Below are positions 13,374 through 44,366 of a stretch of 61,873 nt of DNA, piece after piece. The stretch comes from Methyloversatilis sp. Lineage in GTDB: Bacteria; Pseudomonadota; Gammaproteobacteria; Burkholderiales; Rhodocyclaceae. Under the pieces are notes generated by a model. The model worked only from the letters and a program-made list of their open reading frames with translations. It made no database searches and was not told where the DNA came from. Both the position numbers and the translations under genes were made by a program. The stretch's first letter is position 1, and every line of letters starts with the position of its first letter. The stretch spans positions 1-61,873 of the forward strand of contig JAEUNO010000017.1 of the NCBI GenBank assembly GCA_016791045.1, read 5' to 3'.

Positions 13374-15901
13374 ACACCGCACTGAGCCATGGCCTCTATC
13401 CGGCCGGTCTGACCGGTGCCGCGCTGTTGTTCTCCGTTCTGCTGTCAGTCGGCGCACCCCTCACTTTGGCCAGTCACCTGCCCATCGTACTGACCGGGGT
13501 CGCCATCCTGCTGCTCGAGCAGCGATGCTTTGCCCGCGCCGACTGGAAGCCGCATGCTGCAGACCTGCGTACCGATGCTGCCTTCATGGCCACCGTACAG
13601 GTCGTCTGGCCGTCGCTGCTGGCGGCGGGTTTCGTATTTGCGCTGGCTGATTTCAGGCATGACGCCGGTCCGGACGGGCCATGGCCGCATGACTGGCCGC
13701 TGCCACTGCAGATGCTGACCATGGTGCTGGCGGTGGACCTGATGCGTTACTGGCTGCATCGAGCCTGCCATCACTTCCCGGCACTGTGGCGGCTGCACGA
13801 GGTACACCATTCGCCGGACATCCTTTACCTGCTGAACGTCGGACGCTTTCATCCGCTTGAAAAAGCGTTGCACTTCTCGCTCGATACCGCGCCCTTCCTG
13901 CTGCTCGGCGTGGCACCCGAGGTGCTGGCGGGTTATGCCCTGGTGTACTCGGTCAATGGCTTCTTCCAGCACAGCAATCTGGCACTGCGCTACGGGTGGC
14001 TGAACTACGTGGTGGGCAGCGCGGAAACCCATCGCTGGCATCACGCGCGCGACCCGAAAGTCGCGGCCTGCAATTTCGGCAGCACGACGGCCGTGTGGGA
14101 CGTGCTGTTCGGCACCTGGTATCTGCCGCCCGGGCGCGAGGTCGGCGAACTGGGCATACCGGACCGGCACTATCCACAGGGCTTTCTGGCTCAGATCGCT
14201 GCGCCGTTCCGGCACGTCCGCCACTCGCCGCTGCAGCCGGTGAGGCGGCAGCTGCTGCACCTCGGCCTGCGCTGGATTCGGTGGCGGGCCGAGCGAAGGC
14301 TGGCACAGGTGACACGCGACCCGATGCGCGCGCAGGACGCCGTACTCGCGCGCATCCTGCGCGACAACCGCGATTCCGCATTCGGCCGGCAGCATGGCTT
14401 TGCCGCGCTCGAGGGTTACACGGCCTATGCCAGCACGGTGGATGTGCAGGACTACGAAACGCTGCGCCCCTACATCGAGGCCGAAATCGCACGCGGCGAG
14501 GCGGCGCTGACCCTGGCGCCACCCGCAGGCTACGTCTGCACCAGTGGCACCACCGGACAGCCCAAGCACGTGCCGGTGACCGCCGCCCATCTGGCCGAAC
14601 TGGGGCAGCTTCAGCGGACCGCGGTCGCGTTCCAGCACGGCGTATGCCCGCACGCATTCGACGGCACGCTGCTCGTCATCTACAGCCCCATACATGAAGG
14701 GCTGCTGGCCAACGGCAAGCCTTTCGGATCGGCGTCGGGCATCGTCGCGCTGAACTCACCCGGACTCGTGCGTGACCGCTTCGTCGTGCCGCCGGAGGTC
14801 ATGGCGATTCCTGACAGCCGGGTCAAATACCTCACCATCCTTCGGCTCGCCGTCGTACGGCGCGATGTCAGCTATCTGGGTACGGCGAATCCGAGCACCC
14901 TGCTGCAGCTCGCGCGGCTCTATCGCGCACATTCAGGCCAGCTGGTCAGCGATGTGCGTCAGGGTGGCTTCTTCCTGTCGGACGCCCTGCCCGGAAACGT
15001 GCGAGCAGCGCTGGCCGGCCGGTTGCAGGCCGACCCGGCACGGGCGGATGTCCTGGCGAAGCTCGACGCGTGCGAAACGCCGCCGAAGCTGGCCGATCTG
15101 TGGCCCGAGCTGAAACTGGTGGTGACCTGGACCTGCGCCAGCGCCGGTGTTGCAGCCGACGCCTTGCGCGCCGAACTCGCGCCGGCTACCCGCCTGTTCG
15201 AACTGGGGTACATGTCGAGCGAATTCCGCGGCACGATCACGCTCGGCCGGAATCGCGGCAGCGGCCTGCCGACGCTGGACACGCACTTCTTCGAGTTCGT
15301 CGAACGCCAGCGCTGGGACACCGGCCAGCCGGCGTTCCTGACGATCGACGGTCTGCAGAAGGGCCACGAGTACTACGTGATCGTCACCACGCCGTCCGGG
15401 CTCTACCGCTACTTCATCAACGATGTCGTCAGGGTGACCGGCTTCCTGCACCGCACACCCCTGTTGCGTTTCGTCCAGAAAGGCAAGGGCGTCACCAGCA
15501 TCACCGGCGAGAAGCTGTACGAAGCGCAGGTGCTCGACGCGGTGCGACAGGTAATGGCACAGCACGGCCCGCCGGCCCGCTTCGTGATGATGCTGGCCGA
15601 CGAAACACTCAGTGCCTATCGGCTGCATGTGGAACCCGACCCGTCGCTGGCGCTCGATGCACTGGCCTTCGGGCAAGCGGTCGATGCGCAGCTGTGCCGG
15701 CTGAACATCGAGTACGGCGCCAAGCGCGAAAGCGGGCGACTGGGTGCGCTCGAGGCGCACTGGCTCGCGCCAGGCACCGGTGAGGCCTACAAGGAGGACT
15801 GCGTGCGACGCGGCCAGCGCGAAGGACAGTTCAAGGTGGTCGCGCTGAACTATGCACGAGACATGCGATTCGACTTCCGGCCGCACCGGCGAACGGATTG
15901 A
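13370..15901 (+). CDS. Membrane fatty-acid/sterol hydroxylase fused to GH3-type ligase
   Basis: 843-aa two-domain protein. Residues about 1-280 are a membrane di-iron hydroxylase of the sterol desaturase type: histidine boxes HRACHH (130-135), HEVHH (143-147), H201 and HRWHH (221-225), with several transmembrane helices. Residues about 305-843 are a GH3 (acyl-acid amido synthetase, ANL superfamily) domain: TSGTTGQPK at 391-399 and the motif YRYFINDVVRV. The reading frame is continuous. The domain pair suggests hydroxylation of a lipid-like acid and its ATP-dependent conjugation to an amine or amino acid. It is coupled to the gene before and 4 nt from the epimerase after. Confidence 0.85.
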   Translation: MNTALSHGLYPAGLTGAALLFSVLLSVGAPLTLASHLPIVLTGVAILLLEQRCFARADWKPHAADLRTDAAFMATVQVVWPSLLAAGFVFALADFRHDAGPDGPWPHDWPLPLQMLTMVLAVDLMRYWLHRACHHFPALWRLHEVHHSPDILYLLNVGRFHPLEKALHFSLDTAPFLLLGVAPEVLAGYALVYSVNGFFQHSNLALRYGWLNYVVGSAETHRWHHARDPKVAACNFGSTTAVWDVLFGTWYLPPGREVGELGIPDRHYPQGFLAQIAAPFRHVRHSPLQPVRRQLLHLGLRWIRWRAERRLAQVTRDPMRAQDAVLARILRDNRDSAFGRQHGFAALEGYTAYASTVDVQDYETLRPYIEAEIARGEAALTLAPPAGYVCTSGTTGQPKHVPVTAAHLAELGQLQRTAVAFQHGVCPHAFDGTLLVIYSPIHEGLLANGKPFGSASGIVALNSPGLVRDRFVVPPEVMAIPDSRVKYLTILRLAVVRRDVSYLGTANPSTLLQLARLYRAHSGQLVSDVRQGGFFLSDALPGNVRAALAGRLQADPARADVLAKLDACETPPKLADLWPELKLVVTWTCASAGVAADALRAELAPATRLFELGYMSSEFRGTITLGRNRGSGLPTLDTHFFEFVERQRWDTGQPAFLTIDGLQKGHEYYVIVTTPSGLYRYFINDVVRVTGFLHRTPLLRFVQKGKGVTSITGEKLYEAQVLDAVRQVMAQHGPPARFVMMLADETLSAYRLHVEPDPSLALDALAFGQAVDAQLCRLNIEYGAKRESGRLGALEAHWLAPGTGEAYKEDCVRRGQREGQFKVVALNYARDMRFDFRPHRRTD

Positions 15902-15905
15902 CGCC

Positions 15906-17021
15906 ATGCCGCTCGACGCCCTGACCGCACGTCCGCTCGATCTGCCGTTCCGCGAAGCCTTCCGGCACGCGTCGGCCGAGCGCTCGTCCATGCAGAGCCT
16001 GTGGGTGAGCGCATGCGGCGGCGGCTTCATCGGCCACGGCGAAGGCTGCCCGCGCGAGTACGTCACCGGCGAAAGCCTGGCCGGCGCGCAGACCTTCGTT
16101 GCGTCGCACGTCGACGAATGGCGGTCGAGCATTCACGATCTTGCATCGCTGCGTGACTGGATCGAGCGAAACCACGCGCTCATCGATCGCCACCCGGCGG
16201 CCTGGGCGGCGGTCGAACTTGCGCTGCTCGATCTGTTCGCGCAGCAGCAGGACGACCCGGTCGAACGCCTGCTCGGACTGCCACCGCTGTCCGGCCGCTT
16301 CGAATACAGCGCTGTGCTCGGCGACGCCGAAACCGGGCGCTTCGCCGCGCAGCTGGCGCGTTACGTCCGGCATGGCTTCCGCGACTTCAAGATCAAGCTG
16401 TCCGGGGATGCGGTGCGCGACCGGCAGAAGATCGAGGCGCTGACCGCTGCAGGCATCGCGCCAGACCGGGTACGTGCCGACGCGAACAACCTGTGGCGTG
16501 ACCCCGCCATCGCTGCGGATTTCATCACCGCGCTCGGCATGCGCTTCGGGGCACTCGAAGAACCGCTGGCTGCAGGCGACATCGACGCACTGGGCCTCCT
16601 GGCCGAACGGCTCGACACGCGCATCATCCTTGACGAGAGCCTGCTGCGCATCGATCAGCTCGACCGGCTGGCCGACGCGCCGGCACGCTGGATCGTCAAT
16701 GTCCGGGTGTCCAAGATGGGCGGTCTGATCCGCTCGCTGGCCCTGGTCGAGGCGGCGCGGTCCCGTGGCGTATCGCTGATCGTCGGTGCCCACGTGGGCG
16801 AAACGAGCCTGCTGACGCGCGCTGCACTCACCATCGCCGATCACGCCGGGGCTCGATTGCTGGCACAGGAAGGCGCAGTCGGCACACATCTGCTCGAAAC
16901 CGACCCGGTGCAACCGTCGCTGATGTTCGGCGCCGGTGGCGTGCTGGACATCGAATGCCTCGGCATCGCTGCGCGGCCCGGCTGGGGCCTGACAGTCGCC
17001 GCCCTGGATGCAGCCACCTGA
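15906..17021 (+). CDS. Enolase-superfamily epimerase (dipeptide/N-acyl amino acid type)
   Basis: 371 aa. The capping domain (1-115) and barrel show the expected catalytic set: the KxK base pair in FKIKLSG, the metal ligands D (RADANNLW), E (ALEEPL) and D (ILDESL), and the opposite lysine in VSKMGG. This KxK/K arrangement is that of L-Ala-D/L-Glu epimerases and N-succinylamino acid racemases. The ATG at 15906 lies 4 nt after the GH3 gene. In this operon a natural substrate would be an amino acid or amide made by the ligase, which is an inference. Confidence 0.85.
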   Translation: MPLDALTARPLDLPFREAFRHASAERSSMQSLWVSACGGGFIGHGEGCPREYVTGESLAGAQTFVASHVDEWRSSIHDLASLRDWIERNHALIDRHPAAWAAVELALLDLFAQQQDDPVERLLGLPPLSGRFEYSAVLGDAETGRFAAQLARYVRHGFRDFKIKLSGDAVRDRQKIEALTAAGIAPDRVRADANNLWRDPAIAADFITALGMRFGALEEPLAAGDIDALGLLAERLDTRIILDESLLRIDQLDRLADAPARWIVNVRVSKMGGLIRSLALVEAARSRGVSLIVGAHVGETSLLTRAALTIADHAGARLLAQEGAVGTHLLETDPVQPSLMFGAGGVLDIECLGIAARPGWGLTVAALDAAT

Positions 17022-17070
17022 CGATTGCGTGCCGCGCCGCACGCCTGCTCCCGGGCGCGGATCACACAGG

Positions 17071-17089
17071 GTTGTTGCGACGCAACAAC
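17071..17089. promoter_or_regulatory. Perfect palindrome, operator-like
   Basis: GTTGTTGCG-A-CGCAACAAC has perfect 9-bp arms with one central base. It lies 43 nt before the start of the depolymerase-like gene. This is the form expected for a dimeric repressor site. Control by a PHB regulator such as PhaR is conceivable but unproven. Confidence 0.6.
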
Positions 17090-17131
17090 AGCTTGCGCAT
17101 ACTTGGACCTCCGATCCGTTCAGATTCCGCC

Positions 17132-18268
17132 ATGCCCATCTTCTGCCTCATCCGCCGCACATTCGTCGCAGTCGCCCTGCTCGCCAGCGCGTCGGCCGCT
17201 CCGGCACTTGATTCACCACCACCGCTGAACCTCGATCACCGGCATTTCACCGTATCCGGCCTGTCGTCCGGTGCCGCCATGGCGGTGCAGGTGGGTGTGG
17301 CGCACTCGTCGCGGGTGCGCGGCATCGGCATCGTGTCCGGACCACCCTATCTGTGCGCGCAGGGATTCGTCACCAAGGCGACCAATGACTGCCTGACGCT
17401 GGGGCGCACCTGGTTGCGCGAACTGTTCGGACCGATGTTCGGGCTGTCGCTGTTCAGTTCGGGCGAGCGCGACATCGAGGTGCAGGACCTGATCGCCGAC
17501 ACGAAGAAACTGGCGCAGCGCGACCGCATCGATCCGGTCGCCAACATGGCCGGGCAGCGGATCTGGGAATACCGCGGCAGCGAGGACCGCGTGGTCGGCG
17601 CCAAGGCATCCGCGGCGCAGCACACCTTCTTCCTGCATTTCAACGGCCTGATCGTGCGCGGTGAGCCGCGCGCCACGCCGCATACGCTGCCAACGAACGA
17701 CCCGGCGCAGGGCGCGTGCGACGTCAGCGACGAGGATTTCGTCAGCGGCTGCGATTTCGATGCCGCCGGCTTCATGCTGCGCAGCCTGTACAAGAAACCG
17801 CGCGCCCGCGCGGATGACGGTGCCGGCCAGTGGTACGCACTGCGTCAGGCCGACTACGTGCCGGTCACCCCCGGCATGGCCGATCCCGAGGCCGCGATGC
17901 GCATGCTGGGTCTGGCCGAATCGGCCCATGTCTTCGTGCCCGAGCGCTGCCGGGACGAAAAGTGCGGCATCCATGTCGCGCTGCATGGCTGCCAGCAGGG
18001 CATGACGGACGAAGCGTTCCAGGCCTTCAGCGAAGGTGGGGGCTACACGCGCTGGGCCGGGCCGCTGCGTCTGGTGCTGCTGTTTCCGCGCGTCGACGCC
18101 ATCAAGCCGCTGGAACGCGGCAGCTGGGACAGCGTCGGCAATCCGATGGGCTGCTGGGACTGGTGGGGCTACACCACGCCGACCGATCTGCATGGCTACG
18201 CCACACGCGATGCGCCGCAGATCCGCACGCTGATGAATATGGTCGACAAGCTGGGCAAGGCCGAATAG
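17132..18268 (+). CDS. Secreted poly(3-hydroxybutyrate) depolymerase-like hydrolase
   Basis: 378 aa with a cleavable signal peptide (hydrophobic 10-25, then ASAAPA). The lipase-box-like GLSSGAAM sits near the N-terminus (about 42), while the oxyanion-hole-like VALHGCQQG is near residue 285. That order matches the circularly permuted type 2 catalytic domain of extracellular PHA depolymerases. Several Cys residues are present and the C-terminal GCWDWWGY is typical of the family. It may hydrolyse exogenous PHB or oligomers; the physiological substrate is inferred. It is preceded by the palindrome at 17071. Confidence 0.8.
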   Translation: MPIFCLIRRTFVAVALLASASAAPALDSPPPLNLDHRHFTVSGLSSGAAMAVQVGVAHSSRVRGIGIVSGPPYLCAQGFVTKATNDCLTLGRTWLRELFGPMFGLSLFSSGERDIEVQDLIADTKKLAQRDRIDPVANMAGQRIWEYRGSEDRVVGAKASAAQHTFFLHFNGLIVRGEPRATPHTLPTNDPAQGACDVSDEDFVSGCDFDAAGFMLRSLYKKPRARADDGAGQWYALRQADYVPVTPGMADPEAAMRMLGLAESAHVFVPERCRDEKCGIHVALHGCQQGMTDEAFQAFSEGGGYTRWAGPLRLVLLFPRVDAIKPLERGSWDSVGNPMGCWDWWGYTTPTDLHGYATRDAPQIRTLMNMVDKLGKAE

Positions 18269-18295
18269 GCACCGCCGCCGAGACCGGTCGAGCGC

Positions 18296-19297
18296 TCAGG
18301 CGGCCTTCGCCTGAACCGGCGCAACGGCCGCCAGCAGGATGCGCTCGATGTCATCGTTGGCGCGCACTGGCCGCAATTGCTGATACAGCACCTCGGCCTG
18401 GGGATACGTCCGCCGCAGCAGGTTCAGCCATTGCTTGAGCCGGCCGGCTGCGTGGCGCGCTTCCACGTGGCCGAGCACACGCCGCCAGTACTCGGCCAGC
18501 AACGGCGCGAACTGCAGCCAGTCCTGCGCCGGCGCGGTCGCCGCCTCACCCCGGATGTGCCGTCGGATGCGTTCGGCCAGCAGCGGGTCGGCCACCGCGC
18601 CGCGACCCAGCATCACGTCAGCGAGGCCGCTTTCCGCGCGGCAACGCAGGTAGTCCGCCACCGTCCAGATTTCGCCATTGGCGATCACCGGCACCTTCAC
18701 CGATTCGGCAATGCGCGCGATCCACGGCCAGTGCGCCGGCGGACGGTAGCCGTCGGCCTTGGTGCGGGCATGCACGACAATCATCTGCGCGCCCCCATCG
18801 GCCAGCGCCTGCGCCGCCTCGATGGCGCGCGCGGTGTCGTTCACGCCGAGCCGCATCTTGGCGGTGAAGGGTACGCGGCCGGCCACCGCACGGCTGACTG
18901 CCCGGACGATGTCGAACAGCAGTTCCGGTTCGTCGAGCAACACCGCCCCACCGCGGTGGCGGTTCACCGTCGGCGCGGGGCAGCCGAAATTCAGATCGAT
19001 GCCCGCCGGCCGCAGCTGCGCCAGCAGATCGGCGTTGTCGGCGAGGCAGGCCGGATCCGAGCCGAGCAACTGAACGCGCAGCGGCACCCCACCGGCCGTT
19101 GTCGACTGCGTGAGCAGTTCCGGCGCAACGCGCGTATAGACGCGTGCGGGCAGCAGCATGTTGGTGACACGGACGAACTCGGTCACGCACCAGTCGTAGT
19201 GCGTCACCTGCGTGACGACTGCACGCAGGCGTGCGTCAAGCAGACCTTCCATTGGCGCAAGCAGCAATCGGGGTGAATCGGACGACGGGACGGACAT
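18296..19297 (-). CDS. dusC: tRNA-dihydrouridine synthase (DusC type)
   Basis: 333-aa flavoenzyme that reduces uridine in the tRNA D arm. It begins with the FMN-binding LAPMEGLLDARLR pattern; the catalytic cysteine lies in NFGCPAPTVNRHRGG, followed by TAKMRLG and VHARTK. The MEG start and the NRHRGG motif point to DusC (U16) instead of DusA or DusB. The length is usual. It is convergent with the depolymerase-like gene (27 nt apart). Confidence 0.88.
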   Translation of the reverse strand: MSVPSSDSPRLLLAPMEGLLDARLRAVVTQVTHYDWCVTEFVRVTNMLLPARVYTRVAPELLTQSTTAGGVPLRVQLLGSDPACLADNADLLAQLRPAGIDLNFGCPAPTVNRHRGGAVLLDEPELLFDIVRAVSRAVAGRVPFTAKMRLGVNDTARAIEAAQALADGGAQMIVVHARTKADGYRPPAHWPWIARIAESVKVPVIANGEIWTVADYLRCRAESGLADVMLGRGAVADPLLAERIRRHIRGEAATAPAQDWLQFAPLLAEYWRRVLGHVEARHAAGRLKQWLNLLRRTYPQAEVLYQQLRPVRANDDIERILLAAVAPVQAKAA

Positions 19298-19390
19298 GCG
19301 GGGCGGTGGCGCCGGCAGGGCGCGCTACGCTGGAAGGAGCGTGATTATCGCCGCATCAGGCGGCGCACGGTGATGCGCACAATCTGTGTG

Positions 19391-19475
19391 TGGTGCCCGG
19401 AGCGGGGATCGAACCCGCATGACTTGCGTCGAGGGATTTTAAGTCCCTTGTGTCTACCAGTTTCACCATCCGGGC
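19391..19475 (-). tRNA. tRNA-Leu(UAA)
   Basis: 85 nt including the encoded CCA. Acceptor stem GCCCGGA/TCCGGGC, anticodon loop with TAA in CTTAAAA, a long variable arm (about CTCGACGCAAGTCATG) as in class II tRNAs, and T arm GGGTTCGATCCCC. The D arm GGTGAAACTGGTAGAC is typical of leucine. Confidence 0.97.
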
Positions 19476-19556
19476 CAGAACGCGCATGCCCTGCCGCTGC
19501 ACCGGCATGCCGCCCGGAAAATAGCATGTGTGCGCGCCTCACGGCGCGCTCGCCGG

Positions 19557-20630
19557 TCAGCGCTGACGCACGCTCAGTCGCGGTGCATCGCGTTTGCCGC
19601 CGACCTCGCCGATGACCGCCGGCGCGGAAAAGCCATGGCGGTCGAACACGGCGCAAACGGCCTCCAGGCTGGACGGTTCGCATGTCACAAGCAGGCCGCC
19701 GCTGGTCTGCGGATCGGTCAGCAGGGCTCGGTCTTCGGCGGCGAAGCCTTCCGGCAGCAACACTTCGTTGCCGTAGCCCCCCCAGTTGCGACCCGAAGCG
19801 CCGGTGACGCAGCCCGCAACCGCAAGCGCGCGTACGCCATCGAGCAGCGGCACCTGCGCCCAGTCGATGTGCAGGTCGCAGCCGGCCCCGCGCGCCAGTT
19901 CGAGCACATGGCCGGCGAGTCCGAACCCGGTCACGTCGGTTATCGCATGGACACCTGGCAGCGCGGCCAGATCAGGCCCGGGCGTATTCAGTTTTGTTGT
20001 CGTGGCGATCATGCGGGCGTAGCCGGCGTCATCGAGCATGCCCTTCTTCAGCGCCGCCGACAGAATGCCGACCCCGAGCGGCTTGCCGAGCACCAGCAGA
20101 TCGCCCGGCCGGGCATCGGCGTTGCGTCGCACCTGCTCCGGATGCACCAGCCCCATGGCGACCAGACCGTAGATCGCTTCGACCGAATCGATCGTGTGAC
20201 CGCCCGCCACCGGAATGCCGGCATCGCGGCACACGCTGGCGCCGCCTTCGAGAATGCGGCCGATGGTGGCAACCGACAGCACGTTGATCGGCATGCCGAC
20301 CAGCGCCAGCGCCATGATGGGCCGCCCGCCCATGGCATAGACATCGCTCAGCGCATTGGTGGCCGCGATGCGACCGAAGTCGTACGGATCGTCGACGATG
20401 GGCATGAAGAAATCGGTGGTGGCCACCAGCGCCTGTTCGTCATTGAGCCGGTACACGGCAGCATCATCGGCCGTTTCGATGCCGACCATCAACTCGCGCG
20501 GCATCGGCATCGCAGGCATGCCCTTCAGGATGTCGGACAGAACGCCCGGCGCGATCTTGCAGCCACACCCTCCACCGTGCGACAGCGTGGTAAGGAGGGG
20601 TTCGGTGGCGGGTTGCTGTGCGGTGCTCAT
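19557..20630 (-). CDS. selD: Selenide, water dikinase (SelD / SenC)
   Basis: 357 aa; makes selenophosphate from selenide and ATP. The catalytic HGGGCGCK motif places Cys22 and Lys25 at the positions of E. coli Cys17 and Lys20. Later motifs (DDAAVYRL, TTDFFMPIV, ATNALSDVYAMGG, GGHTIDS) match AIR-synthase-related kinases. The active residue is Cys, not selenocysteine. It lies 24 nt downstream of senB in the same direction, which makes it the SenC component of a selenoneine cluster; whether it also serves selenoprotein synthesis elsewhere cannot be told. Confidence 0.92.
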   Translation of the reverse strand: MSTAQQPATEPLLTTLSHGGGCGCKIAPGVLSDILKGMPAMPMPRELMVGIETADDAAVYRLNDEQALVATTDFFMPIVDDPYDFGRIAATNALSDVYAMGGRPIMALALVGMPINVLSVATIGRILEGGASVCRDAGIPVAGGHTIDSVEAIYGLVAMGLVHPEQVRRNADARPGDLLVLGKPLGVGILSAALKKGMLDDAGYARMIATTTKLNTPGPDLAALPGVHAITDVTGFGLAGHVLELARGAGCDLHIDWAQVPLLDGVRALAVAGCVTGASGRNWGGYGNEVLLPEGFAAEDRALLTDPQTSGGLLVTCEPSSLEAVCAVFDRHGFSAPAVIGEVGGKRDAPRLSVRQR

Positions 20631-20654
20631 GATGGAATTCCTGGGTCACGCGGT

Positions 20655-21647
20655 TCATCGGGACGGTGTTGCCGTCGGGGGTGCGTCAAAGGATGCCAGA
20701 CATTCGTCGATCAGCGCATGCAGCGCCGAGCGTTCGTGTTCGCCCGAAAAAAGTGACGACTTCGCCTCACACTGACGCGCAAGATGCGCCAGCCAGTCGG
20801 GATCGTCGCGCGCACGTGCCATCAGCACCGCCAGCGCGTGTGCGTCGCCCGGAGCGCAGTAACCATCGTAATCCGCACCGAGCAGGCCGACATTGCCGTC
20901 GATGCGCGATGCCAGAACCGGCACGCCGCTGCGGATCGCCTCGATCACCGTATGCGCGCCGCCTTCCATGCGGCTCGGATGCACCAGCACGCTGGCACGC
21001 TGCAGGCGACGGCGCGTGGCGTCGTGCGACAACCCGCCCAGCCAGCGGTAGTCCGGGCACTGGGTCATCAGGCTGCGCGCCGCCTCGCCCAGCGCCGGGT
21101 CGAGCGCACTGCCGATGTGGTCGATGCGTATGTCGCGTCGCGCAGCCAGTTCGCGCGCCGCGTCGAACAGCACATCCGGTGCCTTTTCGGCTCTCAGGTG
21201 ACCTATCATCAACGCGCGCAGACAGCGCGTCGGCGGCGCCTGCCGCACGCGCGCCGGACAGGACTGCAGCACGACGCGGCAACGCGGCTGCAGCGCTTCC
21301 GGCAGCGCATGCGGGCCGAGCGTGTTGAGCGTGACCAGCCGGTCGGCGATGTCGAGCGAGCGGCGGGCGGCCGCATCGGTCGCGATGTCGCGGTACAGAT
21401 CGGTGCCGGTGAGCACGACGATCAGCGGCCGCTCCGGCTGCCGCGCATGCCACGCGGCAGCCGACGCAGCGGAACGACGGGCGTGCAGCGCGATCATCAT
21501 GCTTTCATCGCCACCGTTCCACGCCGCGGTCAGCCGCACGTCGAAACGGTCGCGCAGCATCGACGCCCAACGCCGCGCGGTTCGCCAGTTGCCGTTGTTG
21601 GCATCGGCCAGCGCCGGCGTGACGATGACCACCTTGAGACGCGACAT
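20655..21647 (-). CDS. senB: Selenosugar synthase SenB (GT4-like glycosyltransferase)
   Basis: 330 aa. A GT-B glycosyltransferase-like protein: N-terminal KVVIVTPALADANNGNWRTARRWA (strand plus donor-loop region) and C-terminal HPSRMEGGAHTVIEAIRSGVPVLASRIDGNVGLLG, the nucleotide-sugar site. SenB uses selenophosphate and a UDP-sugar to form a C-Se bond, giving a selenosugar. Assignment rests on the overall fit plus neighbours senA, selD and egtD. The ATG at 21647 has GGAAAG just upstream; an ATG at 21662 would overlap the start of senA. Confidence 0.88.
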   Translation of the reverse strand: MSRLKVVIVTPALADANNGNWRTARRWASMLRDRFDVRLTAAWNGGDESMMIALHARRSAASAAAWHARQPERPLIVVLTGTDLYRDIATDAAARRSLDIADRLVTLNTLGPHALPEALQPRCRVVLQSCPARVRQAPPTRCLRALMIGHLRAEKAPDVLFDAARELAARRDIRIDHIGSALDPALGEAARSLMTQCPDYRWLGGLSHDATRRRLQRASVLVHPSRMEGGAHTVIEAIRSGVPVLASRIDGNVGLLGADYDGYCAPGDAHALAVLMARARDDPDWLAHLARQCEAKSSLFSGEHERSALHALIDECLASFDAPPTATPSR

Positions 21648-21660
21648 GGAGCTTTCCGTC

Positions 21661-22878
21661 ATGAATGTTGTGCAGTCATCGACCGGCGCCCGCTGCGGCG
21701 GCAGGGCGCTGCTGGTTCAGGCACTGCAGGACAGTCGTGCCGACACACTGGCGCGCTTCGCCGATTACCGGCGTGCCTTTCCGGATCTGCGCATTCCGTT
21801 TCACGAAACCCTGAACCCGCCGCTGTGGGAGCTGGGACACATCGGATGGTTCCAGACCTGGTGGACATCACGCAACCCGCAGCGCGCGCTCGGCTGGCGC
21901 GCCGATCCCGATGCCGCACGGCTGCCGGCCGCCCGCGCCGACGCCGATGCGCTGTTCGATTCGAGTCGCGTGGCGCACGCCCTGCGGCCGGGGCTTGCGC
22001 TGCCCGACGCAGCCGCCATGCTCGACGACCTGCAGACCCAGCTCGGTGACGTGATCGCGCTGCTCGAGCAGACGCCCGAACACGATGAAGCGCTGTACTT
22101 CTTCCGCCTCGCACTGCTGCATGAAGACATGCATCACGAAGCTGCGCTGTACATGGCGCAGCAACTGGGCATCGCACTCGACGACGCGCGCTGGCGGCCC
22201 GTCGCGGTCGCACGCGGGCAGACGCGCGGCGCACTGCACTGTCCTGCCGGTACCTGGACGCTCGGACATTCCGGTGAAGGCTTCGCGTTTGACAACGAGT
22301 GCGCGACCCACCCGGTCGGTCTGCCGGCCTGCGACATCGACCGGGCCGTGGTCACCTGGCGCGACTACCTGCCCTTCGTCGACAGCGGCGCGCATGAGGA
22401 CGCGCGCTGGTGGAGCGATGCCGGCTGGCGCTGGAAGACCGCTCAGGACCGGCGGCATCCGCGCTATCTGCGCCGGCACGCGGGCGGCTGGGAACAGCTC
22501 CTGTATGGCCACTGGTTCGAGATCGATCCGGATCATGCCGTCAGTCATGTCAGCGCTTACGAGGCCGAAGCCTGGTGCCGATGGGCCGGCCGGCGGCTGC
22601 CCACCGAAGCGGAATGGGAGCGCGCCGCCGTTGACGAGCCTGCCGCATTCGAATGGGGGCACGTATGGGAATGGACCGCCAGCACCTTCCTGCCCTACCC
22701 CGGCTTCACGCCGCATCCTTATCGCGACTATTCCGCGCCCTGGTTCGGCGACCGGCGCGTGCTGCGCGGGGCGTCGTTCATGACCCAGCCGCGCATGCAT
22801 CACCCGCGCTACCGGAATTTCTTCCGCCCGGAGCGCGACGACGTGCCGGCCGGCTTCAGGACCTGTGCAGCGGGCTGA
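21661..22878 (+). CDS. senA: SenA (EgtB-like nonheme iron enzyme of selenoneine synthesis)
   Basis: 405 aa. The N-terminus has the DinB-like four-helix domain of EgtB (iron ligands expected in LWELGHIGW and HEDMHHEAALY). The C-terminus has the formylglycine-generating-enzyme-like fold, with SAYEAEAWCRWAGRRLPTEAEWE and a terminal RNFFRP pattern. SenA couples hercynine to a selenosugar oxidatively. It is shorter than typical EgtB and sits next to senB and selD, which favours SenA over sulfur-using EgtB. The ATG at 21661 has GGAG 9 nt upstream. It converges with egtD 9 nt away. Confidence 0.87.
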   Translation: MNVVQSSTGARCGGRALLVQALQDSRADTLARFADYRRAFPDLRIPFHETLNPPLWELGHIGWFQTWWTSRNPQRALGWRADPDAARLPAARADADALFDSSRVAHALRPGLALPDAAAMLDDLQTQLGDVIALLEQTPEHDEALYFFRLALLHEDMHHEAALYMAQQLGIALDDARWRPVAVARGQTRGALHCPAGTWTLGHSGEGFAFDNECATHPVGLPACDIDRAVVTWRDYLPFVDSGAHEDARWWSDAGWRWKTAQDRRHPRYLRRHAGGWEQLLYGHWFEIDPDHAVSHVSAYEAEAWCRWAGRRLPTEAEWERAAVDEPAAFEWGHVWEWTASTFLPYPGFTPHPYRDYSAPWFGDRRVLRGASFMTQPRMHHPRYRNFFRPERDDVPAGFRTCAAG

Positions 22879-22887
22879 ATGCATGGC

Positions 22888-23856
22888 TCACGCCGGCAGC
22901 GCCAGAAAGACGCCGAAGCGGACCTGCGCATCCATCCAGCACGACACCTCGCCGAAACCCGCTTCGCGCAGCAGCGTCTCGAAGGCGATCGACGTCCACT
23001 TGTAGGAGTTTTCCGTGTGGATGCGTTCGCCTTCAGCGAAGCGCCGCTCGCCGCCTGACCAGCGCACGGTCACCGCACGACGCGCCTCCAGATGCATTTC
23101 GATGCGCGATGCCGCGCCATCGAAGCGTGCGACGTGCCGCCAGCCAGAGACGTCGAAGTCAGTGCCCGCAACGCGATTCAGGTGACGCAGCACATTCAGG
23201 TTGAAGGCTGCCGTCACACCCAGCGCGTCGTCGTATGCCGCTTCGAGCTCCGCCGTGTCCTTGACCAGATCGACCCCGATCAGCAGGCCACCGCCACGCG
23301 TTGCCGCACAGGCTTCGGCAAGCAGGCGGCGGGCATCCGGCGGTGCGAAATTGCCGATGCTGGAACCCGGGTAGAACACCAGCGCAGGGCCTTCGTACAG
23401 GGTATCCGGCAGATCCAGGCAGGCCGAAAAGTCGCAGCCGACACCCAGCATGTCCATGGCCGGATGCGCGCGCTGCAGACATTCGATCGACTGCCGGAGA
23501 AACTCGGCGGAAATGTCGATCGCGACGTAGCGGCGCGGCGCGAAGGCATCGAAAAGCGCTGCGGCCTTGGCACAGCTGCCGGCACCGAGATCGATCAGGT
23601 CGAAGGCGGTGCCGGCATGTGCGCGGAAGCGGTGTGCCATGTCGTGAGCGTGCGCGGCGAATATCGCCGCTTCGGTGCGCGTCGGGTAGTACTCGTCCAG
23701 CGCGGTGATCGCCTCGAACAGACGCGAACCGAGCACATCGTAGAAGTATTTGGGCGACACCGACGCCACGGGCTGCATCAGCCCGGCCAGCACATCGTCC
23801 AGCCGCAAGGTATCGTCGATCGGCTGCAACTGAATGAAACGCGGTGTTCGCATCAT
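22888..23856 (-). CDS. egtD: L-histidine N-alpha-methyltransferase EgtD
   Basis: 322 aa. SAM-dependent enzyme that trimethylates histidine to hercynine, the backbone of ergothioneine and selenoneine. Visible: KYFYDVLGSRLFEAIT near the N-terminus, the SAM motif IDLGAGSCAKAAALFDA, and FYPGSSIGNFAP. The C-terminal region ends with IHTENSYKW and a short cap. The ATG pair at 23856/23853 follows AGGA. It is convergent with senA and divergent from an ATP-grasp gene, with a 99-nt gap. The length is normal for the family. Confidence 0.92.
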   Translation of the reverse strand: MMRTPRFIQLQPIDDTLRLDDVLAGLMQPVASVSPKYFYDVLGSRLFEAITALDEYYPTRTEAAIFAAHAHDMAHRFRAHAGTAFDLIDLGAGSCAKAAALFDAFAPRRYVAIDISAEFLRQSIECLQRAHPAMDMLGVGCDFSACLDLPDTLYEGPALVFYPGSSIGNFAPPDARRLLAEACAATRGGGLLIGVDLVKDTAELEAAYDDALGVTAAFNLNVLRHLNRVAGTDFDVSGWRHVARFDGAASRIEMHLEARRAVTVRWSGGERRFAEGERIHTENSYKWTSIAFETLLREAGFGEVSCWMDAQVRFGVFLALPA

Positions 23857-23955
23857 GGTCCTATCGCACGCCTGATATTTGTCGGTCGGGCGCAGCATAT
23901 CGCACGCTGCACCTCCATCATCGGCTGGCCGCACGCTCTGCTCACTGGACGATCA

Positions 23956-25305
23956 ATGCCCCCAATCCGCCGCATCGGTCTGCTCTTCGCCTACGACTGG
24001 GACCGCATCGGCTTCGAACGGCACGGCTCGCGCTACAAGTTCTACCGTGCCGGTTTCGATCTGTTTTCCTTTCCGGACAATCTGCGACTGACCGGTTTCG
24101 ATCTCGATCGCTTCGCCGCGCGCACGGCCGATCGCGCGAAGCGCCACCGATGGTCGGCCGTGCTGTCGCATCACGAGCCGTTCGGCGCGCTGGCAGCCGC
24201 CATGGTGGCCGAGCGCCTCGGCCTGCCCGGCGTGCCGCCCGAGGCGATTCTGGCTGCGCAGCACAAGCTGCATGCCAGGCGGGTTCTGGCGCGCGTGGCG
24301 CCGGAGGCCTGCCTGGCATTTGCCGGGCTCGATCTGGATTACGGCGAACCGGTACCGGAGCGACTGCCCGGGGATTTCGAGTATCCCGTTTATGTGAAGC
24401 CGATCAAGGCGGCATTTTCGGTGCTTGCACGCGAAGTCGGCGATCGGTCGGCACTGCAGGCGCACATCCGCTTCGACTGGCGGGAGCTCTGGGTGATCCG
24501 GCATCTGGTCGAGCCCTTCGATCGCGTATGCCGGGCACGGCTGCCGCAGGCCGGGAGCGCGCATCGCCTGCTGCTGGAGGCGCCGGTTGATCCGGGTACA
24601 CCGCAGTTCAACCTCGATGGCTGGGTATTCGACGGACAGGTGCACGCACTGGGCGTCGTCGATGCGATCATGTACCCGGACACCCAGGCCTTCATGCGCT
24701 GGGAGGTGCCGAGTCGCCTGCCGGAATCGGTGCAGGCGCGCGCGCTTGATGTCGCGCGGCGTTTTCTCGGTGCAATCGGTTATTCGCTCGGTTTCTTCAA
24801 TCTGGAGTTCTTCTACGACACGGCCACCGATCGGCTGACCGTCATCGAATGCAATCCACGCCTGGCCTCGCAGTTCTCGGATCTCTACCGCCGCGTGCTG
24901 GGCATCGATGCACACGCGTGGTCGCTGGCGCTGGCGCTCGGCGAAGATCCGAGGTTGCTGCACCGCGAAGATCCCACCGACCGCGCAGCCGCCAGTCTCG
25001 TCTATCGTGCCTTCGACGTCGATGGCTTGCCCGCCATGCCTGACCGGGCATTGCAGGGCGCGTGGCAGCGGCAGTTTCCCGACGGACTGCTGTTCGCGTT
25101 CGGGCGTCGCGGATACAGCCTGCGACGCGATCTGAAATGGACCGGCAGCCACCGTTACGGCATCGTTCATCTGGGCGCACAGGATGCGGCACAGCTCGAG
25201 GCGCGGGCCGAAGCGGCCAGCCGCATGCTGGGCTGGCCGGTGCCCTACGCCGGAGATGCTCGCCTCGAGCGACAAAACAGCCCGAGCACGCGCGAAGTTG
25301 CCTGA
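23956..25305 (+). CDS. ATP-grasp ligase of unknown substrate
   Basis: 449 aa. The ATP-grasp signature is clear: VYVKPIKAAFSVLA (ATP lysine), a central glycine-poor strand region, and NLEFFYDTATDRLTVIECNPR, with the metal-binding E-x-N pair. Such enzymes join a carboxylate to an amine or thiol through an acyl phosphate. It faces egtD across 99 nt, so shared regulation is likely, and it may modify a histidine-derived product. That is inference from position only; it could be an unrelated amide ligase. The C-terminal about 120 residues have no motif I recognise. Confidence 0.8.
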   Translation: MPPIRRIGLLFAYDWDRIGFERHGSRYKFYRAGFDLFSFPDNLRLTGFDLDRFAARTADRAKRHRWSAVLSHHEPFGALAAAMVAERLGLPGVPPEAILAAQHKLHARRVLARVAPEACLAFAGLDLDYGEPVPERLPGDFEYPVYVKPIKAAFSVLAREVGDRSALQAHIRFDWRELWVIRHLVEPFDRVCRARLPQAGSAHRLLLEAPVDPGTPQFNLDGWVFDGQVHALGVVDAIMYPDTQAFMRWEVPSRLPESVQARALDVARRFLGAIGYSLGFFNLEFFYDTATDRLTVIECNPRLASQFSDLYRRVLGIDAHAWSLALALGEDPRLLHREDPTDRAAASLVYRAFDVDGLPAMPDRALQGAWQRQFPDGLLFAFGRRGYSLRRDLKWTGSHRYGIVHLGAQDAAQLEARAEAASRMLGWPVPYAGDARLERQNSPSTREVA

Positions 25306-25404
25306 TCACACGTACTGACTGAAGGTCACTTCGACACGCTGTGTAAGCAATCCGCTGATGCGGCGGTCCGTTCTGGTTGTTCGACTCAACCGAAGGAGAC
25401 CCGC

Positions 25405-25788
25405 ATGAACCGCTTCATCCGCCTCACCGCAATCGCCGCCGTTTCGCTCGCGGCCAGTCTGGCCCACGCGCTCGACATCCAGCCCTACTCGGCGGCGGCG
25501 CTCGGCGCCGCACAACAGGCCGGCAAGCCGGTGGCGGTGCACTTCCACGCAGAATGGTGTTCCACCTGCAAGACGCAGGAGAAGGCACTCAATGCGCTGA
25601 AGGCCGAAAAGGGCTTGGACATCACCGTCCTCATCGCCAATTACGATGAAGAGAAGGATCTGAAGAAGCAGTACAAGGTGCGCAGCCAGTCCGTGCTGAT
25701 CGTATTCAAGGGCGAGCAGGAAAAAGCGCGCCTCGCCGGCGACACGGACATCGAGAAGATCCGCAGCGCGCTGCAGGCCGGTCTGTGA
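25405..25788 (+). CDS. Periplasmic thioredoxin-like protein
   Basis: 127 aa. A signal peptide (hydrophobic 5-20, cleavage near SLAHA-LD) precedes a thioredoxin fold with the redox motif WCSTCK. AAGGAGA lies before the ATG. The stop overlaps the GTG of the ccdA-like gene, so this is a translationally coupled pair: a membrane electron conduit and its periplasmic acceptor. The usual cis-proline region may be the QSVLIVFKG strand; it lacks an obvious cis-Pro. Confidence 0.85.
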   Translation: MNRFIRLTAIAAVSLAASLAHALDIQPYSAAALGAAQQAGKPVAVHFHAEWCSTCKTQEKALNALKAEKGLDITVLIANYDEEKDLKKQYKVRSQSVLIVFKGEQEKARLAGDTDIEKIRSALQAGL

Positions 25789-26510
25789 GTTCGGCGGCCG
25801 AGCTCGGGCTGGCGCTGGCTGCGGGCAGCCTGACGACACTGTCGCCCTGCGTATTTCCCATCCTGCCGCTGGTGGTGGGCGGTGCGGTGCAGGCGAACCG
25901 TCTGGCACCGGTGGCGATGGGGCTCGGCATGGTCGCATCGTTCGCGCTGCTGGGCGTGCTGGTCGGCGTACTCGGCGACGCACTCGGGCTCGATGGTGAT
26001 CTCATCCGCACAGCCGGCGCCTGGCTGCTGATCGCCTTCGGCATCGTCATGCTGGTGCCGGCGCTGAGCGACCGCTTCAGTCTGCTGATGAGTCCGATCG
26101 CAGCCACCGCGCAGCAGGCCAGCAATCACGTCGATGCCGGCTCGCTGCGCGGAAGCTTCCTGCTGGGCGCGGTGCTCGGCATGGTGTGGAGCCCCTGTTC
26201 CGGGCCGCTGCTCGCCTCGGCGCTGACGCTGGTTGCCAGCGAAGGCGGCGCCGCACGCGGTGCGCTGATACTCGGCCTGTTCGGTCTCGGCGCTGCGACA
26301 CCGCTGGTCGGTTTCGCCTACGCGTCGCGGGCCGGCTTCATGCGGTCACGCAACTGGGTGCTGGCGCACATCGACCGCATCAAGAAGGGGTTTGGCCTGC
26401 TCATCCTGCTGGCGGGCCTCGCCGTGCTGCTGGGCTGGGACAAGCAGCTCGAAGCAGCGGTGCTGAACTTGCTGCCGGACGGCTGGGTCCGGACGACCGT
26501 CATGTTCTGA
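25785..26510 (+). CDS. ccdA: CcdA/DsbD-type transmembrane thiol-disulfide transporter
   Basis: 241 aa, GTG start overlapping the thioredoxin stop. Six hydrophobic segments; the cysteines in LSPCVFPILPL and WSPCSGPLL are the paired redox residues of the CcdA/DsbD membrane domain that move electrons from cytoplasmic thioredoxin outward. It probably reduces the upstream periplasmic thioredoxin. The system may serve cytochrome c maturation or another periplasmic reduction; no cytochrome gene is adjacent. The symbol is used in the broad family sense. Confidence 0.85.
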   Translation: MSSAAELGLALAAGSLTTLSPCVFPILPLVVGGAVQANRLAPVAMGLGMVASFALLGVLVGVLGDALGLDGDLIRTAGAWLLIAFGIVMLVPALSDRFSLLMSPIAATAQQASNHVDAGSLRGSFLLGAVLGMVWSPCSGPLLASALTLVASEGGAARGALILGLFGLGAATPLVGFAYASRAGFMRSRNWVLAHIDRIKKGFGLLILLAGLAVLLGWDKQLEAAVLNLLPDGWVRTTVMF

Positions 26511-28148
26511 TCACGGCTGCGCAAACGCACGCAGCATCATCGTGGTCAGATCGTGCAGACCGCCGCGCGGCTCGCGTGGCGGTTCCAGCCCGGCGTGAAA
26601 ACCCTGCGCGGCGAAGCGTGCGAGCAGGTCTGAATCGCGCGACACGATATGCACCGGCACGTCCCACGAGGCACCTTCGCCACTCACACTGGCAGCGGGC
26701 TGGTGGTCGCCGACCAGAATGTAGGTCGTCTCGCGCGGCGGTGGCCGGCGCAGGTGGTCGCCGAGCCAGCGATAGGTGTATTCGACCATTGCCACATAGC
26801 CCGGAAACATGTTCAGCCAGTCCGGCTTCACGGCCAGCGCGCGCGCGCTGTCGTCCGGATCGAACGGGGTGTCGCCGAGCAGCTTCCGCGGGTCGGACTG
26901 ATACGGCGGTACCGGGCTGAACGGCAGATGGCAGGTGATCGTCGGGAAAAACACAAATCGCGGAGGCGAGTGGGCATCGCGCGGGAACAGTTGCTCGAAG
27001 CGCGCAGCGGCGTACTGGTCGGGAATTTTCCAGTAGCCGAATTCAGGTCCCGGGTAACCGAGATCGCGGCCTTCCACGAACTGGTCGTAACCGTAGAACA
27101 CGCGCTCAGGCCAGTCCCAGAACAGGGCCGGGTAGAAGCCGAACGTGCGGTATCCGTTGGCGCGGAACAGCGTGATCAGTGTCGGCCGGTCCGTGGTCAG
27201 CAGCAGATCGTGGCGCAGCGGATCAGTCAGGTCCAGCCCCGACAGCATGCCCAGTTGCGCAAGATCCGATGCACCACCGAAAGTCGGCGAGCGCATGAAG
27301 GCGGACACCACGCTGAAGCCTCCTGCCGCAATGTCGGCCGCCAGTCGCTCGCGCGCCGGCTTCAGGCGGGCTGCTGCCTCGGGGTTGTCGTAGGCCACCG
27401 CGCCATAGGATTCGAGCGGCATCAGATAGACATCGCTGCCGCGCAACGCGGCCAGCGCCGTACCGGGCGGTGCCGCAAGGGCCGCATCGAGCGCGTCGGC
27501 GCGCGGCAGGATCTGCCCGACGCGTTGATCGGTGAAGGTGGCCGTCAGCAGAATGGCCTGCCGGAAATAGGTGGGCACGATGGCGCGCGATACGACTGGC
27601 CACGTTGCGCGCACACCGACGATGTTGGCGATCACCAGCACCACGGCCAGCGCTGTGACGACATGCGCCCAGCGCGTTCGCAGCGCATAGGGAACGGCTA
27701 CGAGCGCCGTGATGCGGATGAGCACGCCGAACAGCCGGTAGATCGCGTATGCGAGCAGCACGACGGCTGCGACGGCTGCCAGGCTCATCCACCACGGCAG
27801 ATTCTGCGCCGACACCCACAGAAAGCGCGGAATCTGCTGCCCGTCCCAGTAAAGATTCACCGGCCGTCCGAACAGCGCGGGTACGGTGACGTCGCCGTAG
27901 CGCCCGAGCACGAGCAGCGTGAATACCAACGTGAATCCGGCCAGCACGCGCGGCGACGGCGTGCCCCGCTTCGCTACGAACAAAAGCAGGCCGAGCCACA
28001 AACCGACGAATTCCGGAGCCAGCCGGTGGTCGGGCACGATGGCTGGCGTGGGCCACACGTTGCTGAAGCTGAGGAGGGCATTCAACAGCAGCAGCGCGAG
28101 GACGGCCTGCGCACCGCAACGCCACGAAGGCAAGGCAGACGTGGTCAC
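26511..28148 (-). CDS. LtaS-like membrane phosphoglycerol/phosphoethanolamine transferase
   Basis: 545 aa. The N-terminus has about five transmembrane helices; from residue 250 a periplasmic sulfatase-fold domain follows, with PLESYG and SPTFGGASDL (the Thr being the probable nucleophile), FFPTITCHLPFSP and ILVGDHQP carrying metal ligands. It resembles membrane enzymes that transfer phosphate-linked groups from lipids to glycans or lipids. The GTG at 28148 overlaps the stop of the methyltransferase gene (GTGA), giving translational coupling. The substrate cannot be told from sequence. Confidence 0.75.
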   Translation of the reverse strand: MTTSALPSWRCGAQAVLALLLLNALLSFSNVWPTPAIVPDHRLAPEFVGLWLGLLLFVAKRGTPSPRVLAGFTLVFTLLVLGRYGDVTVPALFGRPVNLYWDGQQIPRFLWVSAQNLPWWMSLAAVAAVVLLAYAIYRLFGVLIRITALVAVPYALRTRWAHVVTALAVVLVIANIVGVRATWPVVSRAIVPTYFRQAILLTATFTDQRVGQILPRADALDAALAAPPGTALAALRGSDVYLMPLESYGAVAYDNPEAAARLKPARERLAADIAAGGFSVVSAFMRSPTFGGASDLAQLGMLSGLDLTDPLRHDLLLTTDRPTLITLFRANGYRTFGFYPALFWDWPERVFYGYDQFVEGRDLGYPGPEFGYWKIPDQYAAARFEQLFPRDAHSPPRFVFFPTITCHLPFSPVPPYQSDPRKLLGDTPFDPDDSARALAVKPDWLNMFPGYVAMVEYTYRWLGDHLRRPPPRETTYILVGDHQPAASVSGEGASWDVPVHIVSRDSDLLARFAAQGFHAGLEPPREPRGGLHDLTTMMLRAFAQP

Positions 28149-28798
28149 GCCCGGACACGCCCGGATGCGATGTACCCCATGCCGTATTGCGTCGGCGTCA
28201 GGCGCCAGCCATCGAGTCTCGGTGCGATGCGGTCCCACGGCGAGCGCAGCGCTCCCGGCGACCCGTTGTAGCCGTGGTTCTTGTAGTAAACCCAGATGTT
28301 CAGCGGCGCCAGCCAGAACGGAAAGTACTTGATGCCGGCAATGGCGACCGCCGCTCCCGGTCTGGCGCAGGCCAGAAGCCGCTCGACGGCAGACGGCGAA
28401 CGCAGCACATCATGCGTGTAATGGAACAGCAGCGCGTCGACCGGCGCCGGGAGGACCAGGCCCTGGGCTGGCGTTTCGTAAAGATGAACGTTCCGCCAGC
28501 CGGCGGTCGCCACGCGGTCACGCGCCTGCCGGAGCATGTCCGGACTTTGATCGAACGCGTACACGCAGCCCTCATCTCCGACGCGTTCGCGCAGTCGTGC
28601 GAGGCTCAGTCCGGTACCGCAGCCGACATCAAGAACCGCCTGTCCGGGCTGCAGATCGAGCAACGCTATCGTCCGCTCGCGTATCGGCCACGTCGGACCG
28701 CACGTCGAATCGTAGCCGGCTGCGCGATGACGATACTTCTCGATGGAGGCGGCACGGATTGCTTCGTCGGACAGGCCGGCAGGTGATCGGACAGTCAT
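28145..28798 (-). CDS. Class I SAM-dependent methyltransferase
   Basis: 217 aa. SAM-binding motif I is VLDVGCGTGLSLARL, followed by AFDQSPDMLRQAR (acidic loop) and FHYTHDVLRS (motif IV). It has the general fold of ubiquinone/menaquinone-type methyltransferases and a hydrophobic, Trp-rich C-terminus (YFPFWLAPLNIWVYYKN), suggesting membrane association. It is coupled to the LtaS-like gene, so the pair probably modifies the same membrane lipid or glycan. No specific substrate is assigned. Confidence 0.8.
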   Translation of the reverse strand: MTVRSPAGLSDEAIRAASIEKYRHRAAGYDSTCGPTWPIRERTIALLDLQPGQAVLDVGCGTGLSLARLRERVGDEGCVYAFDQSPDMLRQARDRVATAGWRNVHLYETPAQGLVLPAPVDALLFHYTHDVLRSPSAVERLLACARPGAAVAIAGIKYFPFWLAPLNIWVYYKNHGYNGSPGALRSPWDRIAPRLDGWRLTPTQYGMGYIASGRVRA

Positions 28799-28856
28799 CG
28801 CAGGTCGGGTAGCGCCGGGGAGAAAGGGGCGGGCAATGCAGCGTGCCCGCCCGGAT

Positions 28857-31573: not shown

Positions 31574-32149
31574 CGTGATGAAAACCGGGAAGCGGGGTTG
31601 CGCGCCGACCCGATGGTGCTGGCTGACGCGGAAGGACGGAGATTTTACAGTGCGCGCGTGCCCGTGGGTACGGCCGCCCGATTTGCAGGGCCATACAGGC
31701 TGCTGGATCGGCTCATTCGAGCGACCAGATTGCACCTGAAGCAGGGTATCCAGTCAGCCCGCAGACCGCATATCTGCACGGACGCGGTCCGCGAGCCGCC
31801 GGACACTCCGTCCTTTGCGTATGGGCATCGGCGCGTTGCTTGCCGCCGCGGCGGCCCCAACCCTAACTTGGCGATCCGCGAGTGAGGCAGTCCGGCCCCG
31901 AGGTCACCTGCACCACGACCTGCCAATCGACGGCTACTGCATTGTCGCCAGTTCCACGTCAAATTATCTGCAACATGACTCTGCCGGACTCGCGCGCCTG
32001 CTGCACGGCTTGCTCAAACATTGCGCGGTTCCTTGGACATAGACGGCGCGCGCCGTGACCTTTTCACAACGGAGGCGAAGCAGCCAAATAAGTCATGCAG
32101 GTGCATCACGCAAAGGAGCTGCAACTCTAGGGCTACAGCTTCTGATGAA
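31574..32149. other. Non-coding stretch between cysD and the polysaccharide cluster
   Basis: About 575 bases with no convincing gene on either strand. It contains the upstream region of cysD (promoter presumed here) and the 3' end of the polysaccharide cluster. Short frames in it lack ribosome sites and family features. No terminator hairpin stands out. Confidence 0.4.
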
Positions 32150-33028
32150 TCAGGAAGAGCTCTTCAGATCATCGGGAGTTGGTGCAAACGTACGGGGCGA
32201 AAATCCTAGATCGCGGACAGCATCGCTGTAGTCGAAAACCATATCGACATTCATCCGCTCCACCATACCAAACGACAACGTTGACCTTGGACGAGCCACC
32301 GACCACGCTGACACCACACACCGGAAAATCCAGTGTGGCACCTTGACTAACCGCGGCCGTCGCGTCATTCCAATGAAGATGCGTTCGATCATTGTCCGGT
32401 AAGTCAACCTCTCTTTGCCACACAGGTCGTAGCAACGCCTTGCAGCGGCGGGCGACCACCCAGCCGCGACGACTGCATGCGCAAGATCCTCGGCATGTAA
32501 CGGTTGGCGCAGCCCGCGCGCGGAACCCAGTAGAGGAAAGAACCCGAAACGCCTTATGAAGGCGGCTACGGCACCCACATTCTTGTCTCGTCCGAAACCG
32601 TAGATCAGCGTCGTGCGGAGGATGACCCATTCGACGCCATTGCTCTCCGCCCATGCGATCAACGCACGCTCGCCGTCGATAAGCCGCTTCACGGTCAATT
32701 GCTCACGTGGATCGGAAGAATCAAGCTTCGTAAACCGGCTCGTCGAGGATACGGCAACCACACGCTTGGCTCCGCTCGCAAGCACGGTTGCCAGATACTC
32801 CGGAAGTATCCATATCGGCGCGAGGCAAAACCATACTTCAACCCGGTCAACGTTAGCGACATTGAGTTCCGCGGTCGGTCGCCACGCCACGGACTCGATC
32901 TCACACACCTGCGCGCCGCGCGAATAGGCAAGGATCGCGCAACCCTGCTCGCGCAGACTTTCGAGCAGTATCGGGCCAACCAGTCCACGCGCCCCCAGAA
33001 CTGCGACTGTAATCCTCTCAGCGATCAC
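32150..33028 (-). CDS. NAD-dependent epimerase/reductase, nucleotide-sugar type
   Basis: 292 aa. The Rossmann glycine motif is VLGARGLVGPILL, close to the GxxGxxG of extended SDR enzymes. A serine-threonine pair in VAVSSTSRFTKLD and the following ERALIAWAESNGVEWVILRTTLIYG fit the family, although the usual YxxxK is not obvious (E-R-A-L instead), so activity may differ. It starts at a GTG at 33028, overlapping the end of the next glycosyltransferase gene. Being last in the cluster, it may supply or modify a sugar nucleotide. Confidence 0.75.
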   Translation of the reverse strand: MIAERITVAVLGARGLVGPILLESLREQGCAILAYSRGAQVCEIESVAWRPTAELNVANVDRVEVWFCLAPIWILPEYLATVLASGAKRVVAVSSTSRFTKLDSSDPREQLTVKRLIDGERALIAWAESNGVEWVILRTTLIYGFGRDKNVGAVAAFIRRFGFFPLLGSARGLRQPLHAEDLAHAVVAAGWSPAAARRCYDLCGKERLTYRTMIERIFIGMTRRPRLVKVPHWIFRCVVSAWSVARPRSTLSFGMVERMNVDMVFDYSDAVRDLGFSPRTFAPTPDDLKSSS

Positions 33029-35826: not shown

Positions 35827-35922
35827 CGTTGCGTCTGAGCTCCCCTAGTGCGGCGCGAGCGGCGGCTCCAGATAATGTCGACGCCCGGACAGCGTACTCA
35901 CTCCACCCGCTAAACCTGAACA

Positions 35923-37398: not shown

Positions 37399-37415
37399 CG
37401 CCGGATTATAGAGCG

Positions 37416-38779: not shown

Positions 38780-38783
38780 GTCA

Positions 38784-39542: not shown

Positions 39543-39546
39543 AACG

Positions 39547-44364: not shown

Positions 44365-44366
44365 GA

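Follow-up and report, generated by a model that had tools for sequence, protein, structure and literature searches.

Background

The closest described system is the sen cluster of Variovorax paradoxus DSM 30034, which encodes SenA, SenB, and SenC. The selenoneine pathway considered here is as presented in PMC9814287 and, in its relevant parts, in PMC10891094. Applied to the present genes, EgtD would convert histidine to hercynine by trimethylation, and SelD (SenC) would produce selenophosphate from selenide and ATP. SenB would transfer the selenium onto a UDP-sugar, giving a selenosugar. The iron enzyme SenA would then join the selenosugar to hercynine with the use of O2, and the selenoxide formed would collapse to selenoneine.

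The four sen genes

The window (the whole stretch of 61,873 nucleotides that was analysed, from contig JAEUNO010000017.1 of Methyloversatilis sp., GenBank assembly GCA_016791045.1) contains a complete set of selD, senB, senA, and egtD. As the sequence-only reading had proposed, the four open frames lie contiguously at 19557-23856, and all four proteins (SelD, SenB, SenA, and EgtD) score above the NCBIfam cut-offs. The locus is best explained as a complete, intact-looking sen cluster that belongs to the known Variovorax type and additionally includes egtD (probability about 0.94); its product and reactions are predicted from characterised homologues.

The selD/senC gene (19557-20630, minus strand) encodes a selenide water dikinase (selenophosphate synthase), which scores 522.7 bits with NF002098 (cut-off 299) and 421 bits with TIGR00476 (cut-off 125); SHGGGCGCK is found in its N-terminal part. 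The senB gene (20655-21662, minus strand) lies on the same strand, 24 bases upstream of selD, and encodes a selenosugar synthase (Se-glycosyltransferase). Two starts are possible, 21644 and 21662; if the gene begins at 21662, its ATG and that of senA have two bases in common. SenB could have turned out to be an ordinary glycosyltransferase, yet it reached 427.6 bits with the equivalog model TIGR04348 (cut-off 300), and the second-best family in the NCBIfam profile scan gave 103 bits (cut-off 400).

The senA gene (21661-22878, plus strand) encodes a non-haem iron selenoneine synthase, and its ATG at 21661-21663 is conserved in all five aligned Methyloversatilis sequences. The protein scores 507.3 bits with the SenA equivalog model NF041186 (cut-off 420). 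TIGR04373, which had been named earlier as the SenA family, is in fact an "EgtB-related enzyme signature" model, and SenA scores 92 bits with it (cut-off 71). The egtD gene (22888-23856, minus strand) encodes an L-histidine N-alpha-methyltransferase, the hercynine-forming enzyme, with 357.7 bits for TIGR03438 (cut-off 290.9). These coordinates are counted from the ATG chosen in the sequence-only reading; the open frame extends to a GTG at 23934.

The gene order is selD(-) senB(-) senA(+) egtD(-). The genes senA and senB had been described as facing each other, which is incorrect: they are divergent, and the convergent pair is senA and egtD. It had also been suggested that the four genes would suffice for selenoneine synthesis from histidine, SAM, selenide, and a UDP-sugar. 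All four genes are indeed present, but synthesis from this gene set also requires ATP, O2, and iron. As for the reported lack of EgtC and EgtE nearby, neither family matched any of 12 proteins that were scanned in the region 15852-30587 (those of the four sen genes among them); the remaining window was scanned in part.

Layout of the SenA loci

Loci were fetched for 80 of 116 SenA relatives; in 61 of the 80 the flanks extend 3.5 kb or more to either side of the gene, and in 54 the downstream flank is 7.9 kb or longer. Among the 61 loci, senB stands divergently beside senA in 53, selD follows behind senB in 49, and egtD lies convergently beside senA in 24, with 16-179 bases between the matches. 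The inclusion of egtD and the senA/senB layout had been considered worth recording. Both are common, and novelty on either count was rejected. As selD, senB, and egtD are all present in 20 of the 61 loci, sen sets that include egtD are frequent.

No senB match was found near senA in eight of the 61 loci (L014, L019, L025, L044, L059, L062, L065, and L079). SenA homologues at E 1e-60 or better were found in only one of 72,556 plasmid records, from Hydrogenophaga. On plasmid pBPS33-1 of Hydrogenophaga sp. BPS33 (L222, 57958-60069), a divergent pair is annotated as senB and as a SUMF1/EgtB/PvdO family protein. This senB/senA-like pair adjoins chromate and arsenic resistance genes.

Conserved motifs of SenB

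Among solved sequences, the Se-glycosyltransferases 8k5u and 8fbx come closest to SenB (333 and 323 bits, respectively). The lysine region GHLRxEKxP is kept as GHLRAEKAP (Lys160), and the NWxT stretch as NWRT. The donor motif is EGGAHT; in characterised enzymes, according to section 10 of PMC10891094, it is EGGAHV. A loose motif search was made in the other SenB proteins, which were available from 69 of the 80 loci (those with a SenB match). It found EGGAHV in 44, EGGAHT in five, EGGAHA in three, and two further forms once each, with no match in 15 of the 69. On our reading of the alignment, the SenB residues here probably match positions N20, T23, K158, and E231 in the enzyme that has been characterised.

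SenA and its relationship to EgtB

SenA and EgtB are homologous, and EgtD is common to the selenoneine and the ergothioneine pathways. The protein called SenA here might thus be a sulfur-using EgtB, and the locus would then make ergothioneine. The profile scores argue against this: SenA gave 243 bits with the EgtB model TIGR03440, below the cut-off of 360, so no EgtB equivalog is called at the locus, and the SenA score is well above its own cut-off. The closest solved sequences are the selenoneine synthases 8ryz and 8k5i (405 bits), followed by OvsA (160 bits) and EgtB 4x8b (148 bits). The protein contains HEDMHHE, an HX3HXE motif.

A tree was reconstructed from 48 proteins (47 from chosen loci and the SenA of the window), with long branches flagged among the outer rows. 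SenA grouped with the SenA proteins of Methyloversatilis, within the SenA set (branch support 100/98). The OvoA rows and those below the SenA cut-off, which were taken as EgtB-like by their SenA score, fell outside this set. Profile scores, nearest structures, and tree thus place the protein with SenA and not with EgtB-like proteins, in agreement with the sequence-only reading. Moreover, senB and selD adjoin senA. The EgtB assignment was rejected on the scores, structures, and tree, and ergothioneine synthesis by this locus is very improbable.

Genome context and selenium use

The genome of the window (G000) comprises 3.54 Mb in 47 contigs and is 91.94% complete; absences from it are therefore provisional. 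SenA is 95% identical to the SenA of Methyloversatilis sp. XJ19-49. Judged from the characterised homologues, every reaction described above, and selenoneine production itself, would be expected in a Methyloversatilis-like host.

SelD was found over its cut-off at one place in the genome, and SelU/MnmH was also over its cut-off. SelA gave no match in the genome. SelB-like matches there were below the cut-off only, and the one within the window is CysN. A selenocysteine system was rejected as the reason for SelD on these SelA and SelB results. Since SelD is single, SelU/MnmH is present, and SelA gave no match, SelD would serve both selenoneine synthesis and tRNA selenouridine; it probably also supplies the SelU/MnmH pathway to tRNA 2-selenouridine. 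The predicted selenium uses of a Methyloversatilis-like host are therefore selenoneine and tRNA selenouridine.

EgtD gave one match in the genome. The SenA model, searched genome-wide, found SenA and one other place, OvoA. In other genomes of the taxonomic family, this model also matches proteins at 261-402 bits, EgtB-like ones among them, so an EgtB in this genome would probably have been seen. With a single EgtD, and with only SenA and OvoA found by the SenA model, EgtD should feed SenA. A host with one EgtD and no EgtB detected by the SenA-model search would be well suited to asking what selenoneine does without ergothioneine. At the OvoA place (G000:C24:11817-13103; L002:727-2862), the N- and C-terminal OvoA models are both over their cut-offs, so ovothiol may be a product of this host alongside selenoneine.

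Several other features of the window were noted. CysN, the large subunit of sulfate adenylyltransferase, is encoded at 28857-30587 (minus strand), some 5 kb away from the sen genes; this enzyme could act on selenate too. A tmRNA at 1-302 is cut by the window start. The region 32001-48000 has a lower G+C content (0.55-0.60), and a glycosyltransferase-like gene at 33018-33935 scored below all cut-offs.

The ATP-grasp ligase beside egtD

An uncharacterised ATP-grasp ligase is encoded at 23956-25305 (plus strand), divergently from egtD; it is a candidate for an accessory gene in some sen loci. By the coordinates, 99 bases (23857-23955) separate the two genes. This gap is a possible shared promoter region; sigma-70-type consensus promoters numbered 0 in it, with 1.0 expected from shuffles.

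The predicted fold is of the ATP-grasp ligase type and is nearest to the L-amino-acid ligases BL00235 (3vot), BacD (3vmm), and RizA (4wd3), at 13-18% identity and with PurK-type folds nearly as similar. At the family level, Pfam LAL_C2 gave 13.5 bits, below the cut-off of 29.4. The nearness to L-amino-acid ligases is consistent with an accessory enzyme of selenoneine metabolism, in a locus of more than four genes; the ligase would, for example, activate the carboxyl group of selenoneine or hercynine and link it to an amine, which would yield an amide or a dipeptide-like compound. We regard such a role as rather unlikely. More doubtful still is the specific proposal that the ligase is an unrecognised enzyme of some beta-proteobacterial sen loci, which would activate the carboxylate of selenoneine with ATP, couple it to an amino acid or other amine, and make the conjugate the final selenium metabolite. 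In that reaction, the trimethylated nitrogen of selenoneine could not be the attacking amine.

Distribution and neighbourhoods of the ligase

Across the order, 399 genomes were searched, with at most four candidates scored per genome, so misses are possible. A ligase homologue was found in 44 of the 399 genomes, SenA over its cut-off in 89, and both in 33 (odds ratio 16, Fisher p 1.7e-15, over the 399 genomes with kinship ignored). In 12 of the 44 genomes, that of the window among them, the homologue reaches or exceeds 49% identity, and seven of these have it within 11 kb of senA. In another of the 12, G195, the ligase is on a different contig; about 2 kb from it, this contig ends in a piece of EgtD. 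Of the remaining 32 genomes, two carry the ligase no more than 0.4 kb from senA (in one case as a partial match), and a third carries it next to senB and selD. At L163:6304-9771, selD, senB, and the ligase stand together; no senA or egtD occurs in the 15.6 kb read, and boxA/boxB and napA adjoin.

Among the 54 SenA loci whose downstream flank is 7.9 kb or longer, the ligase is present in 17: 15 of the 21 with egtD, and two of the 33 without it. Its position varies. In Methyloversatilis its neighbour is egtD, in Rubrivivax-type loci a putative selenate ABC transporter precedes it, and in other loci it directly adjoins senA or has a YHS-domain protein after it. The co-occurrence with egtD, the variable gene orders, and the transporter neighbourhood all speak for an accessory role in selenoneine metabolism. 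In the family to which the window's genome belongs, seven of 61 genomes gave a match: three contain full-length close homologues, all near senA, a fourth retains a remnant in the vicinity of senA, and the other three gave weak matches only. The remnant at L127 (G018:C1:3855105-3855464) covers query residues 100-224 of 451, contains one internal stop, and lies about 1.1 kb from senA.

The transporter of the Rubrivivax-type sen loci is of the PhnD/C/E/E type and lies between egtD and the ligase. Its profile scan covered the substrate-binding protein of L061 and three components of L064. The L061 protein (L061:10518-11381) passes the putative selenate model TIGR04553 with 357 bits (cut-off 250); this model gave no match in the genome of the window.

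Other observations point away from the sen genes. The ligase is absent from 37 of the 54 SenA loci, and 56 of the 89 SenA-positive genomes have no ligase match at E 1e-20; conversely, 11 of the 44 ligase genomes have no SenA over the cut-off. A distant ligase clade is mostly away from sen genes; because the ligase tree mixes SenA-fetched and ligase-fetched loci, its "sen" labels are biased, and the ligase-first counts are fairer. Distant homologues also occur elsewhere, for example beside ClpA or Mpl genes. For homologues outside the order, a search of 369 genomes of the class was used; besides the window's genome, 18 of them gave a ligase match. Four of these homologues were inspected: the three with readable flanks (L223, L228, and L229) have no sen gene nearby, and the contig of the fourth is too short to tell. 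Among the 72,556 plasmid records, eight match the ligase, all under 60% identity.

A sulfatase-type (PF00884) gene at 26511-28238 (minus strand) of the window recurs near the ligase. Eight distinct loci contain the two genes together, and in two of these (L189 and L223) no sen gene is nearby. As this pairing is partly found without sen genes, other functions of the ligase are possible, for instance in the cell envelope together with the sulfatase-type gene. The locus would then be shared through joint inheritance or transfer of gene blocks. We lean towards this explanation, although the several gene orders around senA across genera are hard to derive from a single passive hitch-hiking event. 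A thioredoxin-like gene and a DsbD-like gene follow the ligase in the window (25405-26510, plus strand); in L182 this pair is located between senA and egtD.

Wider flanks were obtained for 39 of the 47 ligase places of the order search, together with G237, G210, and the G105 stretch; one other place is the window itself. G358 and the second ligase places in G327 and G431 were not separately fetched, and the short G118 locus was excluded from the gene-neighbourhood survey. L059 and L180 have an identical ligase, on contigs of equal length, and are probably one genome. A complete frame of 380-520 residues is present in 49 of the 59 non-window ligase loci, and alignment A1 consists of 34 of these and the window's ligase.

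A link between the ligase and selenoneine was not found in the open-licence PMC literature; the primary sen and ovoselenol papers (2022, 2024) may report the ligase or egtD. The ligase is the sole part of the locus that might be new. If it does act on selenoneine, it would represent a new, testable step in the metabolism of selenium small molecules.

Comparison with known systems

Compared with the EgtB/EgtD loci for ergothioneine, the present locus has an EgtD of the same family, and its SenA is a distant homologue of EgtB. SenA here is nevertheless under the EgtB cut-off and outside the EgtB-like branch. The sen cluster of V. paradoxus DSM 30034 is much closer: it has the same three enzymes and shares the tested motifs, and among PDB sequences, solved SenA and SenB chains are the closest to the two proteins here. 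Two differences stand out against the V. paradoxus system as described in the relevant section of PMC10891094. SenB carries EGGAHT instead of EGGAHV, and egtD lies within the locus, whereas the V. paradoxus cluster consists of three proteins.
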